A DNA stretch of 43,570 nt from Candidatus Fibrimonas sp. Its GTDB lineage: Bacteria; Fibrobacterota; Fibrobacteria; Fibrobacterales; Fibrobacteraceae. Both the position numbers and the translations under genes were made by a program. The stretch lies in NCBI GenBank assembly GCA_031273195.1, contig JAISSJ010000096.1, positions 1 through 43,570 on the forward strand. Reading direction: 5' to 3'. Under the pieces are notes generated by a model, which had not been told where the DNA came from, made no database searches, and saw only the letters and a program-made list of their open reading frames with translations. Position 1 is the stretch's first letter, and each line of letters starts with the position of its first letter. This document shows, in pieces, positions 6,222-43,440 of the stretch.

Positions 6222-6857
<636 letters not shown>

Positions 6858-29871: not shown

Positions 29872-30384
29872 TATATTTACCCTCAAATGCAACCTCAGAC
29901 CTGCAAACTGCCCCTCACGCTAGACCCTCTGACACAGGCTCTGGGGCGTTTTGCGTTTAGGGGTAAAAACCTGCCCAAAAAATTGGGTTTGCGGTTTCAT
30001 GGGCTTTGCAGCCCGAAAATACGGCATTTTACCCCCCCCCCCCCCCCCCCCCCTCAGCAGGAAGCAGGTAAAACTAGCAGCTTAGAGCTTTCCTGCACAC
30101 AGGAAACCACAACGCAGAACAATTTAGTGCTTTCCCGCTGGCAGGAAACTACGTTTCATTGCTATTTACTACTTTCCTGCATACAGGAAACAGCATTTCA
30201 GAACCATTTGGGGGGTTCCTGCACGCAGGAAACAGTATTTCAGAGCAATTTGAGGCTTTCCTGCACACGGGAAACCGTATTTCAGAGCAATTTATGGCCT
30301 TCCTGCACACAGGAAACCATTATTCCGAGCCGTTTGCTTGGAGAACGTATCTGTTTTTATCAAAATAAGGAGAATAATCTATGA
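29872..30384 (+). repeat. Repeat element B: promoter-like box, leaderless-type ORF with C22 tract, running into DUF6261
   Basis: TATATT at 29872 is preceded by TTTTTTC and followed 15 nt later by ATG (29887). The core AGGCTCTGGGGCGTTTTGCG (29936-29955) and the run of 22 C at 30032-30053 match elements A and C. From 29887 the frame is open for 165 codons. It goes through Pro codons in the C tract and through the 42-bp array (as 14-residue repeats like Leu-Ser-Cys-Thr-Gln-Glu-Thr). It stops at 30382-30384, where TGA overlaps the DUF6261 ATG. The other two registers stop at 30071 and 30085, so only tract lengths of 3k+1 connect the ORF to DUF6261. Whether it is translated is unproven. Confidence 0.5.
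30089..30316 (+). repeat. Array of six 42-bp units, each with a TTTCCTG-N4-CAGGAAA hairpin
   Basis: Inverted repeats start at 30089, 30131, 30173, 30215, 30257 and 30299, an exact 42-bp period. Each has 7-bp arms around a 4-nt loop (mostly CACA or similar). Units 2, 4, 5 and 6 carry one substitution in an arm. The spacers are conserved too (ATTTCAGAGCAATTT in the best copies), so this is a tandem satellite and not a CRISPR. The array ends 64 nt before the DUF6261 ATG. Because 42 bp is four turns of B-DNA, all palindromes face the same side of the helix. Confidence 0.9.
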
Positions 30385-31130
30385 GAATAGACAGCTTTTA
30401 CAGAAAAAATCTGCGAAATGACGAGCATTTCCAGCTTAACACCGAGTTCCGAGACCTTATTATTAAGGAAGGGGCGGAAAATCTGAAGGTAGGGGAACAG
30501 TTTGCAGCCTATCAGTCTTCTTACAACAAGGAGGACGAGGGAATTAAAAGGGTTAGCAAGAGCCTTTTCACCGAGAAAATTCAGGAGGCGGACAAAGCCC
30601 GCGATGATATTTACTCCGGCATGGTGGAGATTAACGAAGGCTCGCTGAAGCACTACAATCCAAGTGTGCGGGAGGCGGCAAAGAAGCTCAAAATACTGTT
30701 TGACACTTATGGAAATCTCTCGCACAAACCGCTCAATGAGCAGACGTCGGCGGTTAATAATATTTTGCAGGAATTGAAGGGGAATTATCTTGAAGCGACC
30801 CGGACTGTTCAGATAGACGGCTGGGCGAATGAGCTTGAAGCGAGGAACAATGCCTTTGACGTGCTTGTAAAAGGTCGTGCCGATGAGGCTGCTGCCAAAA
30901 CCGATGTTGTTGTGAAGCAGGCTCGTGTTGAGCTTGACGGGGCTTATGATGCTGTTGTTGAGCGTATCAACGCTTATGCGGTGATTGAGGGCGGTGAGAT
31001 GTATGAGCGGTTTATCAAGACATTCAATTTTGTGATTGCGAAGTATAATGCTATTGTGAATGCGAGGCTCGGCAGGAGAAATCACAAGCCGGCTGGGGAG
31101 CATGAAACGGCGGAGGTAGAAAATGCTTAA
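30381..31130 (+). CDS. DUF6261 family protein
   Basis: 249 residues, nearly all helical, with no membrane segment or signal peptide. The start (Arg-Ile-Asp-Ser-Phe-Tyr-Arg-Lys-Asn-Leu-Arg-Asn-Asp-Glu-His-Phe) and the middle segment Tyr-Gly-Asn-Leu-Ser-His-Lys-Pro-Leu-Asn-Glu-Gln are what I remember of DUF6261 from Bacteroidota and Fibrobacterota. The function is unknown. AAGGAG lies 8 nt before ATG, and the ATG also overlaps the stop of the upstream element-B frame. The 3' end overlaps the next lipoprotein gene by 8 nt. Codon use is GC-balanced like the core genes. Confidence 0.8.
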   Translation: MRIDSFYRKNLRNDEHFQLNTEFRDLIIKEGAENLKVGEQFAAYQSSYNKEDEGIKRVSKSLFTEKIQEADKARDDIYSGMVEINEGSLKHYNPSVREAAKKLKILFDTYGNLSHKPLNEQTSAVNNILQELKGNYLEATRTVQIDGWANELEARNNAFDVLVKGRADEAAAKTDVVVKQARVELDGAYDAVVERINAYAVIEGGEMYERFIKTFNFVIAKYNAIVNARLGRRNHKPAGEHETAEVENA

Positions 31131-40350: not shown

Positions 40351-41358
40351 TTAGTTTTCCAAAAACTTATCCTTCACTTTTGCCCACACTTCGGGGACAA
40401 CCGATTTGAACGCCTCCTGCTCCGCTTTCTCGGCGTTCAAGGCTCCTTCCTTTTGTCCGTTGACGGTAATTAAAGTTTCGTTTTTGCCTGTTCTTGCATT
40501 GGTCAGAGCAACTTTCACGCAAGCATTGGCGTAGTGGAAATATCCGGCTGCCGTCGCATTGCAAACCTTGCCGTCTATCTTTAGAATGTAACCCGCCTCG
40601 TTTTCATCTTCCGTTATTGTGATGTTGTTTTCGGAGAGGAATGTTTGCAAACCCGATACAATAATATCCGTTCCGGTGACAAACACCAGCATGGCGTCTC
40701 CGGCTTGCAGGGAGGCAATCTCGTTCAGAAGCTCGTTTATGCGTTCGCCTTGGGAGCGCTTGGCGCCGTTTTGGGAGTCAACGATTAGCAGCAATGACCT
40801 GTAGTAGGCGGTGGAGTCTATGAATTTTTTGCTGCCGTCCAGCTTTTCAAGGGCTTCTTTTCTTTTGTCAAGTTCTAGCAACTGCTTGGAAAAGTCTATG
40901 CTGCGTTGGGATTCGTTCAGGTAGAATTCTATGCGGGTGGCGTAGTAATCGGCCAAGTCAGATTTTCGGACGGCGGAGAAGGCGTAGATGATGTTGTTTT
41001 TTGCGTCGTAGTGTGAGTGGGTTTGGGCTTTGGCTATTTCCGCATTGGTGGAGACTTGTATTGTTTGGGCGTAGTTTTGGTCTATGGTTTCACTTTTGTT
41101 GCTGCTTGTCATTTTTGTCTTTGAGGTTGAGGTTCCGCTTATGCGGATGTTTATGCTTTCTATGAGCCTTTTTTGGGCTTCTTTTTCTATGGCTTGGTAG
41201 GTTTCGGAATTGGGTTGGCTTTTTATGTTGTCCCTTGCGAAGCCCGTGTACCAATCCGTGTTTGGGTAACGGGTGGTACGCCAGGACTCGTCAATCCATT
41301 GCGGGGTGGAGTTCTGGGCTAGAACGGGAAGGGTGAAGAGCAGGATTAGGAGAGGCAT
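40351..41358 (-). CDS. LPP20-like exported protein
   Basis: 335 residues. A short signal (Met-Pro-Leu-Leu-Ile-Leu-Leu-Phe-Thr-Leu-Pro-Val-Leu-Ala) is followed by Pro-Gln-Trp-Ile-Asp and a region with Tyr-Thr-Gly-Phe-Ala and Ala-Gln-Lys-Arg-Leu-Ile-Glu-Ser-Ile-Asn-Ile. These are features of LPP20/DUF400-type proteins (about 1-150). The C-terminal part has Gln-Ala-Gly-Asp-Ala-Met-Leu-Val-Phe-Val-Thr-Gly and Gly-Lys-Val-Cys-Asn-Ala-Thr. The ATG at 41358 has only a weak ribosome-binding site. A good one precedes a 19-codon ORF (41346-41405) overlapping this start, so either coupling or a frameshift in the signal peptide is likely. Confidence 0.65.
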   Translation of the reverse strand: MPLLILLFTLPVLAQNSTPQWIDESWRTTRYPNTDWYTGFARDNIKSQPNSETYQAIEKEAQKRLIESINIRISGTSTSKTKMTSSNKSETIDQNYAQTIQVSTNAEIAKAQTHSHYDAKNNIIYAFSAVRKSDLADYYATRIEFYLNESQRSIDFSKQLLELDKRKEALEKLDGSKKFIDSTAYYRSLLLIVDSQNGAKRSQGERINELLNEIASLQAGDAMLVFVTGTDIIVSGLQTFLSENNITITEDENEAGYILKIDGKVCNATAAGYFHYANACVKVALTNARTGKNETLITVNGQKEGALNAEKAEQEAFKSVVPEVWAKVKDKFLEN

Positions 41359-41495: not shown

Positions 41496-41579
41496 TTACG
41501 GCCATCGTAATAGCACACTTACGATGACCGTAATAACACGATTACGGCAACCGTAATAGCACGATTACGATGGCCGTAA
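41496..41579 (-). repeat. Array of four 23-bp units, each a TTACG-N5-CGTAA hairpin
   Basis: Palindromes start at 41496, 41519, 41542 and 41565, an exact 23-bp period. Arms TTACG/CGTAA are invariant, loops are GCCAT, ATGAC, GCAAC and ATGGC. The fourth unit is the exact reverse complement of the first. Spacers are also alike (TAGCACAC, TAACACGA, TAGCACGA). The last palindrome ends 1 nt from the stop codon of the HU-like/DUF4469 gene. Possible roles are binding sites, an mRNA 3' stabiliser or an attenuator; no protein is known to bind it. Confidence 0.9.
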
Positions 41580-41580
41580 A

Positions 41581-42327
41581 TCATAAAACCGACAAAACCC
41601 TATCAAAAACCGTATTTCTAGGCTCTTTAAGCAAGTGCTTGCTATTACCGCCGTATTGAGTGGCTATTTCCAGCTTGTAACTGCCTGCCGCCAATGCCGG
41701 GATTACAACTATCAACTCGGAAGGCTTGTTCACGGGCATTTTTGAACTAACCTTTACCCGTTCATTGGTCTCTTGGTTGATGAAATAAACGCCATTTTCG
41801 GCGTTTTCACCCGAAATTCTGATTTTGCTCCCGCTTATACGCAGATTGCGATTGGGGGTAAGCAGGTCGCTTATGCTCTCGCTCTCAATATCCGTAACTT
41901 CGTCAATGAAGAAGGTGGCTTTGTTCACGCCCGTAATCTCAACATTAATGTTCGCAAGCTCCCTGCGAAGCCGCAAACCCTGATTGAAATCAAAGGATAT
42001 CTTGTGCTTTTCGGGGTTGAACTGCTCCGTAGCCTTGTTGAACACCCCCTTAATCTTGGGCCGGACATTGAAAACGCCCGTGTTCACCGTGAAACCGTTG
42101 CATAGCAGATAGGCCATCTCGCTCAAATACAGGTCAACGGCGTGTTCCATAGCCTTGGCGGAAATATCCGCCCCGCCTCTCTGTGCCGCATAATTGCAAA
42201 CATCTTTTGAGGTGAGGGGTTTGTCCGCTACCACCCTTGCCGCAAAGTCGTTAGGGTCTTCGGTGAGCACGTTATCATATAACTCTGCTCTAATCTTGTG
42301 CTTGCGTAATTGCTCATTACTTGCCAT
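41581..42327 (-). CDS. HU-like DNA-binding protein with C-terminal DUF4469 domain
   Basis: 248 residues. The N-terminal half (about 1-125) fits the HU-like DNA-binding domain: Thr-Ser-Lys-Asp-Val-Cys-Asn-Tyr-Ala, Ala-Met-Glu-His-Ala-Val-Asp-Leu-Tyr, Asn-Gly-Phe-Thr-Val-Asn-Thr-Gly-Val-Phe-Asn-Val-Arg-Pro. The C-terminal half (about 130-248) is the Ig-like DUF4469: Leu-Thr-Pro-Asn-Arg-Asn-Leu-Arg-Ile-Ser-Gly-Ser-Lys-Ile-Arg-Ile and Asn-Lys-Pro-Ser-Glu-Leu-Ile-Val-Val-Ile-Pro. GGAGG lies 5-6 nt before ATG. Element C sits upstream and the 23-bp palindrome array directly downstream, so it is a natural candidate to bind such repeats. That link is inferred. Confidence 0.85.
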   Translation of the reverse strand: MASNEQLRKHKIRAELYDNVLTEDPNDFAARVVADKPLTSKDVCNYAAQRGGADISAKAMEHAVDLYLSEMAYLLCNGFTVNTGVFNVRPKIKGVFNKATEQFNPEKHKISFDFNQGLRLRRELANINVEITGVNKATFFIDEVTDIESESISDLLTPNRNLRISGSKIRISGENAENGVYFINQETNERVKVSSKMPVNKPSELIVVIPALAAGSYKLEIATQYGGNSKHLLKEPRNTVFDRVLSVL

Positions 42328-42425: not shown

Positions 42426-42602
42426 CTAGCAGACGGGGGGGGGGGGGGTAATTTTGATATAAGCAGGAATGCCGTTAGCATCGCATAGTCTGGGCACCTT
42501 GGGTGTTTTTTGGTCCCCCAAAAAACGTGCCGCCGAGCCTGCGGTGGAAGGTCGGGCGAGGGGCGGTTTTTGGTTCAGGGACTGCATTTATGGGGTAATA
42601 TA
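42426..42602 (-). repeat. Repeat element C: promoter-like box, 53-codon ORF, C14 tract, upstream of the HU-like gene
   Basis: TATATT (first T at 42602) is preceded by TTTTTTC and lies 15 nt before ATG (42587), as in A and B. The core AGGCTCGGCGGCACGTTTTT (minus, 42540-42521) matches the other copies. The present frame runs 53 codons (42587-42426), ending just after a C14 tract (G at 42435-42448). Its residues Pro-Ser-Thr-Ala-Gly-Ser-Ala-Ala-Arg-Phe line up with Pro-Ser-Ala-Ile-Gly-Ser-Gly-Ala-Arg-Tyr of element A. With 3k C the frame would end in TAA directly against the HU-like ATG; with 3k+1 it would overlap that start. Confidence 0.55.
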
Positions 42603-42727: not shown

Positions 42728-42943
42728 ATGTCTCTAGCAGTTAAAGATTTCTTGGTTTATGTAATAGAACTTTGTGCCGAAAGATTTTTTGGCGGAAGCA
42801 AAACAATGGCTTACAATCAACTGAAAAACACAAACCAATTATCCTTTTATAAAGACACTTACGATACTTCGCATACGCTGTCTTCCGAATACATTCTGGA
42901 AGAAATAAAGGAAAAATTTATGGAATATGGAATTGTTTTATGA
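42728..42943 (+). CDS. DUF3791 family small protein (putative antitoxin)
   Basis: 71 residues, helical. Ala-Val-Lys-Asp-Phe-Leu-Val-Tyr-Val-Ile-Glu-Leu at the start, then Lys-Thr-Met-Ala-Tyr-Asn-Gln-Leu and Tyr-Ile-Leu-Glu-Glu-Ile near the end, are as I recall for DUF3791. It overlaps the DUF3990 gene by 4 nt (ATGA). Predicted leaderless start (TAAATT 12 nt upstream). Small DUF3791 proteins commonly flank DUF3990 genes and are likely partners or antitoxins; this is not proven. Confidence 0.75.
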   Translation: MSLAVKDFLVYVIELCAERFFGGSKTMAYNQLKNTNQLSFYKDTYDTSHTLSSEYILEEIKEKFMEYGIVL

Positions 42944-43440
42944 TTTTGTATCATGGTTCATTGGAGATAATAAAAGAACCAAATCCTTTTCTCGGAAGGA
43001 AAAATGTGGATTTTGGGCAAGGTTTTTATTTAAGCGACCTTAGAGAGCAGGCAGTCCGTTGGCTTAACCGCAGGAAAAGAACAAATCCGCAGAAAAAAGG
43101 AATTTTGAATATATACGAATATACGGAAAATGCAAATTTAAAGATTAAGAAATTCGGCGGTTATTGCGAGGAATGGCTGGATTTTGTTATTTTGAATAGG
43201 ACAGCCGGTAATATCTCGCAAAATATGGATTATGATATTGTTATAGGAAATGTAGCCGATGATGAAGTGATTGTCGCAGTAGATAACTATGTTGAGTCTC
43301 TTGCAAAGGGCAGGGCAACCGGAAACACCAAGCTGGCACTGCTGGATGAGCTTTCTTTTGCTCATCCTAATAACCAATATGCTTTCAAAACGGTTTTATC
43401 TTTAGCCAGTTTGAAATTCACGGGGTATGAGGAATTTTGA
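42940..43440 (+). CDS. DUF3990 protein, ADP-ribosyltransferase-like
   Basis: 166 residues. Tyr-His-Gly-Ser at 4-7, Asn-Val-Asp-Phe-Gly-Gln-Gly-Phe-Tyr-Leu-Ser at about 23-33 and Glu-Gln-Ala-Val-Arg-Trp nearby fit the ART fold (His, Tyr and an acidic third residue) placed in the DUF3990 family. A third catalytic residue cannot be assigned with confidence. The flanking small genes and tight overlaps (4 nt upstream, 1 nt downstream) suggest a toxin-like effector controlled by its neighbours. Targets are unknown. Confidence 0.75.
   Translation: MILYHGSLEIIKEPNPFLGRKNVDFGQGFYLSDLREQAVRWLNRRKRTNPQKKGILNIYEYTENANLKIKKFGGYCEEWLDFVILNRTAGNISQNMDYDIVIGNVADDEVIVAVDNYVESLAKGRATGNTKLALLDELSFAHPNNQYAFKTVLSLASLKFTGYEEF

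Follow-up and report, generated by a model that had tools for sequence, protein, structure and literature searches.

The HU-DUF4469 gene near one end of the window (the whole 43,570-nucleotide stretch of Candidatus Fibrimonas sp. DNA analysed here) is followed by an array of short palindromes, and the two appear to belong together. Comparison with homologs suggests, with a probability that we put at about 75%, that an HU-DUF4469 protein and its adjoining array are cognate partners, the protein being a dimeric DNA binder with sequence specificity and the array a private operator array bound to its own locus. The window protein itself very probably recognises the window array, and the predicted contact is a hairpin loop of its DUF4469 domain. 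The window array is apparently one case of a large class that has so far gone undescribed.

The array consists of four 15-bp palindromes of the form TTACG-N5-CGTAA, to which no strand is assigned, at positions 41496-41510 (TTACGGCCATCGTAA, centre GCCAT), 41519-41533 (TTACGATGACCGTAA, centre ATGAC), 41542-41556 (TTACGGCAACCGTAA, centre GCAAC), and 41565-41579 (TTACGATGGCCGTAA, centre ATGGC). As in the initial annotation, the units start exactly 23 bp apart, the arms are invariant, and units 1 and 4 are exact reverse complements. Tandem Repeats Finder also recovers the array with a period of 23. Unit 4 lies 1 bp past the stop codon of the HU-DUF4469 gene (41581-41583). The 1.96-Mb assembly (approximately 61% complete) contains four copies of TTACGN5CGTAA, all inside this array, which argues against a chance origin; a search with a two-unit pattern returned three matches and its reversed control none. 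The array differs from a CRISPR array, in which identical repeats alternate with unique spacers: its unit is 23 bp, its 8-bp spacers are partly alike, and only its arms are invariant. It also differs from REP/RAYT elements, which are dispersed palindromes associated with a Y1 transposase, in that the motif is confined to the array and the adjoining gene has no transposase domain.

The gene (41581-42327, minus strand) encodes the proposed reader of the array, a protein of 248 amino acids with two Pfam domains and no others: HU-DNA_bdg (PF14848, E 3e-35) and DUF4469 (PF14734, E 4e-27). The HU-like DNA-binding domain, the putative dimer scaffold, spans residues 13-134 (41926-42291, minus strand); Foldseek matches this N-terminal domain to HU and IHF, which places it in the HU/IHF superfamily. 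Residues 141-239 (41611-41907, minus strand) form the Ig-like DUF4469 domain. The full-length fold matches PDB entry 4FMR (BVU_2165, a protein of unknown function) with a TM score of 0.77. In the AlphaFold2 model, which is that of a monomer (pLDDT 83), the hypervariable loop GGNSKHLL (residues 226-233, codons at 41629-41652 on the minus strand) is the turn joining the long C-terminal strands 215-225 and 232-240 of the Ig-like domain, and it is our candidate for the base-reading element.

Arrays of this kind are a family-wide feature. A tandem array lies within 200 bp of the stop codon in 242 of the 278 HU-DUF4469 genes (87%) from Fibrobacterota and Bacteroidota, its period nearly always 23 (range 22-24); adjacent control regions are positive in approximately 10-13% of cases, and approximately 13% of the genes have no detectable array. 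In the first set, where an array was called if its score in the 200 bp past the stop codon exceeded the 99% level of shuffled sequence, 105 of 118 genes are followed by arrays compared to 11 of 112 control regions (the next 200 bp), with periods of 23 (85 arrays), 24 (15), and 22 (3). A second set, counted by hand from a list of scores above 10, gave 18 of 23, and a third gave 119 of 137 (110 with period 23), compared to 18 of 134 control and 0 of 137 shuffled regions. Repeated 6-mers are found 1112 times at lag 23 and 748 times at lag 46, compared to 23 and 5 times in the control. The median distance from stop codon to array is 16 bp. In the 194 arrays with period 23, the half-sites lie 4-7.5 bp from the dyad, which places the two about one helical turn apart; they are approximately 90% conserved across units and approximately 90% palindromic, while centre and spacer vary. 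Two congeners carry a period-23 array directly past the stop codon of the same gene: the arms of one are similar to those of the window array and those of the other are unrelated (TTTCCC/GGGAAA). Most of the distant HU-DUF4469 homologs of G086 have no 23-bp array. The initial annotation would have been refuted by arrays that are absent or displaced at other DUF4469 genes; with 242 of 278 genes carrying theirs in the same place, this check did not refute it, and the proposed selection on the palindrome is supported. A literature search of partial coverage returned no description of the arrays, nor of DUF4469, BVU_2165, or HU-HIG in a relevant sense.

The source genome groups with the termite-gut Candidatus Fibrimonadales, among whose members HU-DUF4469 genes are rare (4 of 100 relatives). 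They are common in some Bacteroidales: 26 of 295 genomes of the order have them, as do 28 of 38 genomes of the genus Parabacteroides, one of which has the highest copy number, with 43 DUF4469 matches. Matches in termite-gut Bacteroidales are 52-60% identical, and Bacteroidota are the probable source from which the window gene was acquired. Viral relatives were also sought, and none was confirmed. One locus, L005 (G000:C90), encodes a stand-alone DUF4469 domain that lacks the HU domain; the 23-bp array after it is degenerate and has CTCG/CGAG arms.

The gene that follows an array is usually co-directional (167 loci, compared to 21 convergent), and the median gap between the two is 75 bp. This gap contains the promoter-like motif TAnnTTTG 22 times compared to 6.2 expected. 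By a crude criterion, 110 of the 167 co-directional products have a signal- or lipoprotein-like start. Twenty downstream genes that were sampled include those for FimA, clostripain, PKD/Ig repeats, BspA-type LRR, GLUG, DUF4988, and a SASA esterase, and many of the 20 products have no family. In the window, the corresponding gene and possible target of regulation (40351-41358, minus strand, co-directional) encodes 335 amino acids with a signal peptide-like N-terminus and no Pfam family. Three closely related HU-DUF4469 genes (L051, L069, and L079) precede putative polysaccharide genes, judged by eye to be flippase-like and dTDP-glucose dehydratase-like.

With this arrangement, an array might act as RNA, its units forming hairpins in a 3' untranslated region or leader that serve stability, attenuation, or antitermination, with the protein perhaps binding the RNA. 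Arrays do lie past a stop codon and mostly ahead of a co-directional gene 75 bp on, and stems with 5-nt loops could form. However, departures from pairing in the stems are G-T 79 times and A-C 65 times; G-T is thus not in excess, as expected of symmetry in DNA, and the symmetry of the arrays looks like that of DNA, not RNA. In seven cases a hairpin that resembles a terminator, T run included, stands between gene and array, and units of an array share the same arm sequence instead of showing compensatory variants. We consider an RNA element very unlikely.

The motifs are also confined to their own loci. P. gordonii has 20 copies of ATACGN5CGTAT. Five belong to the array with this motif, and the other 15 correspond to the rate in genomes without that array; TGCGCCGNNCGGCGCA is practically restricted to its own array. 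Motifs are not enriched outside their own arrays, so nothing points to a genome-wide regulon, and we rejected that candidate. The same confinement bears on a role of the arrays as sites for cassette exchange by recombination or transposition, with the protein as an architectural helper. Such a role would fit the horizontal spread between phyla and two particular cases. L069 and L079 are near-identical HU-DUF4469 genes of one genome with near-identical loops and unrelated arrays; the chimeric array of L079 retains one old half-site, followed by a foreign array, and L079 is likely a recombinant in which the match of loop and array was broken. L076 and L156 are nearly identical genes on two contigs whose arrays are apparently inverted (the spacers are reverse-complemented), which suggests inversion between palindromic arms. 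Against this role, no recombinase is linked to the arrays, each motif is private to its locus and found at no other site in the genome, and orthologous arrays are stable between two species (L132/L135). We regard this role as very unlikely.

The arm sequence varies from gene to gene across the family, and what it follows is the loop. Whole-unit similarity is correlated only weakly with whole-protein identity (rho approximately 0.06-0.10), since the signal sits in this one element. When overall identity is controlled, the top columns of a column scan form a contiguous cluster (residues 227-232), and a sliding-window scan peaks at the loop (partial r 0.44, z 4.5), as it does again when only distant pairs are used (permutation p 0.01). 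The initial annotation had proposed to check whether array sequence covaries with the HU-like domain. Covariation is present and was replicated; however, it resides in the DUF4469 hairpin loop, and the HU domain was rejected as the determinant of the arms, since HU domains that are 92-97% identical can have unrelated arrays. L132 and L122 of P. gordonii, for example, are paralogs with near-identical HU domains, the first with an ATACG array and the second with an ATAGG array. TTACG-type arms are common to the loops GGNSKH (window), GGNSKS (L012), and GGNSKT (L123, from P. goldsteinii), the last in a protein 36% identical to that of the window. Likewise, GGNTKQLL in L024 (Tannerella) and L132 (P. 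gordonii), 30-32% identical and with different codons and tails, accompanies ATACG in both, and STGNKLL in L013 (Fibrobacterota) and L329 (Parabacteroides), 23% identical, accompanies GGGAAA/TTTCC.

The rule relating loop to array was written down before the third set was examined. With 117 new genes the scan peaks again at the loop (residues 225-232, z 5.6). Among pairs of a new and an old gene at 75-97% identity, the array is shared in 14 of 15 with similar loops and in 7 of 44 with different loops (Fisher p 1e-7), with the caveat that the compared loop-array pairs are not fully independent. Pairs with identical loops have the array in common in 25 of 27 cases, the exceptions being two pairs (SSASTLL, L298); below 40% overall identity all 5 of 5 such pairs share arrays (two distinct loops), with matches down to 23-35% identity. 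Where loops differ, arrays are usually not shared even by near-identical proteins, and single loop changes often accompany a changed array, suggesting that the code is fine-grained. For new genes below 40% identity with similar but non-identical loops, 4 of 13 arrays were predicted correctly compared to 0.28 under permutation (p 0.001); predictions often fail in such divergent pairs, so the loop-to-DNA code is not yet solved.

These correlations bear on the possibility that the proteins bind DNA structure, recognising cruciforms or junctions as P. gingivalis HU PG0121 would, so that palindromy matters and sequence does not. HU does bind cruciform DNA, and PG0121 has been linked to a 77-bp inverted repeat and the capsule operon (PMC3969353). 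However, the arms are alike in all units of one array (at least 0.9 conserved), and a sequence-blind binder would not require that they follow the DUF4469 loop; we regard such binding as highly improbable. Canonical HU binding is sequence-independent; the HU-DUF4469 proteins may depart from it in this respect, given that the arms follow the loop. Joint inheritance of the 3' end, which might be invoked because the loop codons are merely approximately 50 bp from the array, is an extremely unlikely source of the correlation, since the latter drops to approximately 0.1 at residues 234-248, between loop and array, and matches at 23-35% identity differ in C-terminal tails and synonymous codons. The cognate relation of each gene to its own array, suggested from the outset, is therefore supported both by array position (242 of 278) and by covariation of loop and array.

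In the cognate-pair reading, the HU-like domain would form a dimer, and the Ig-like domain would present its hypervariable beta-hairpin loop (GGNSKHLL here) to read a half-site (TTACG here). One palindrome would offer a dimer two half-sites about a helical turn apart, and a row of dimers would load onto 3-7 palindromes at 23-bp spacing. The occupied array would act only locally, most likely serving as a control region that separates the HU-DUF4469 gene from the downstream co-directional gene, mostly one for a surface protein; since paralogs of one genome keep different loops and arrays, each would act on its own locus only. Local control of a downstream surface gene is probably the most economical function, and we give roughly even odds to control of that gene by the array-bound protein. 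We also lean towards a broader reading in which these pairs would constitute a repertoire: an HU scaffold bearing a CDR-like Ig loop, arrays joined to their genes, dozens of orthogonal pairs that independently control surface loci, and loop and array co-diversifying under a readable code. If true, this would provide a function and a target for a sizeable family of proteins from gut and oral bacteria that is still unexplained and represented to date by domain names and a single structure, and would point to a new layer of control over the surface proteins of gut Bacteroidota. It would also supply a dataset from which to derive a recognition code and orthogonal regulators: natural protein-DNA pairs, numbering in the hundreds, whose recognised DNA sequence appears to be set by a loop of approximately 8 residues.

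A second array in the window (30082-30319), the 42-bp array of the initial annotation, is also real and lies beside a DUF6261 gene (30381-31130, plus strand). DUF6261 genes of Fibrobacterota relatives have upstream arrays with a period of 41-42 bp; many are visibly palindromic, and each differs in sequence (L330, L332, L334, L335, L336, L341, L346, L347, L349, and L351). DUF6261 is a second family of genes with private arrays. The initial annotation had suggested one shared system for both arrays; the gene-specific palindromic arrays of the relatives lend support to a shared logic, but their period and upstream position mark a separate system. It had further paired each gene with a poly(C) element. 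Long poly(G)/poly(C) tracts are present near both genes (42437-42450 and 30032-30053), but a tract of at least 8 upstream of an HU-DUF4469 gene was found at 1 of 209 genes, that of the window, and at none of the 208 other loci, and a general link was rejected. Poly(G) is also present upstream of the paralog L007. Elsewhere in the window are a DUF3990 gene near the array gene, at the window end (42940-43440, plus strand, E 1e-40), and five copies of the 7-bp unit ACTCTCA (6410-6445).

Among known proteins, an HU-plus-Ig clade of the HU/IHF superfamily, expanded in Bacteroidetes, was reportedly delineated by Burroughs and colleagues in 2017 and is said to have been predicted to recognise invading DNA. 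It shares with HU-DUF4469 the architecture, the lineage-specific expansion, and the solved relative BVU_2165 (4FMR); in contrast to invading DNA, the target proposed here adjoins the protein's own gene. To our knowledge, neither adjacent cognate arrays nor a specificity loop has been described for that clade. PG0121 likewise unites an HU protein, a surface-structure operon, and an inverted repeat, being co-transcribed with the capsule operon that carries the repeat (PMC3969353), in this case one large repeat in contrast to a 23-bp array. It is described as similar to E. coli HU, from which we infer that it lacks DUF4469, and its sequence specificity was an open question to its authors (PMC3969353). 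The UpxY antiterminators of Bacteroides polysaccharide loci are also paralogs tied to one surface locus each, of which they are the first gene and for which they are needed (summarised in PMC9409006). They differ in acting by antitermination during transcription of the untranslated region, and they are not known to have a palindromic array or DUF4469. The window protein has no NusG-type domain such as that of UpxY. Proteins encoded beside repeated palindromic or direct-repeat sites are familiar from autoregulated repressors with operator arrays, ParB-parS, and plasmid iterons. HU-DUF4469 differs from these in its more than 200 paralogs and homologs, whose targets differ with one short loop and are set in a fixed 23-bp frame past the gene. 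A single operator-regulator pair is of a known kind; as far as we have searched, a repertoire that has diversified and keeps its private arrays in a fixed frame is new.
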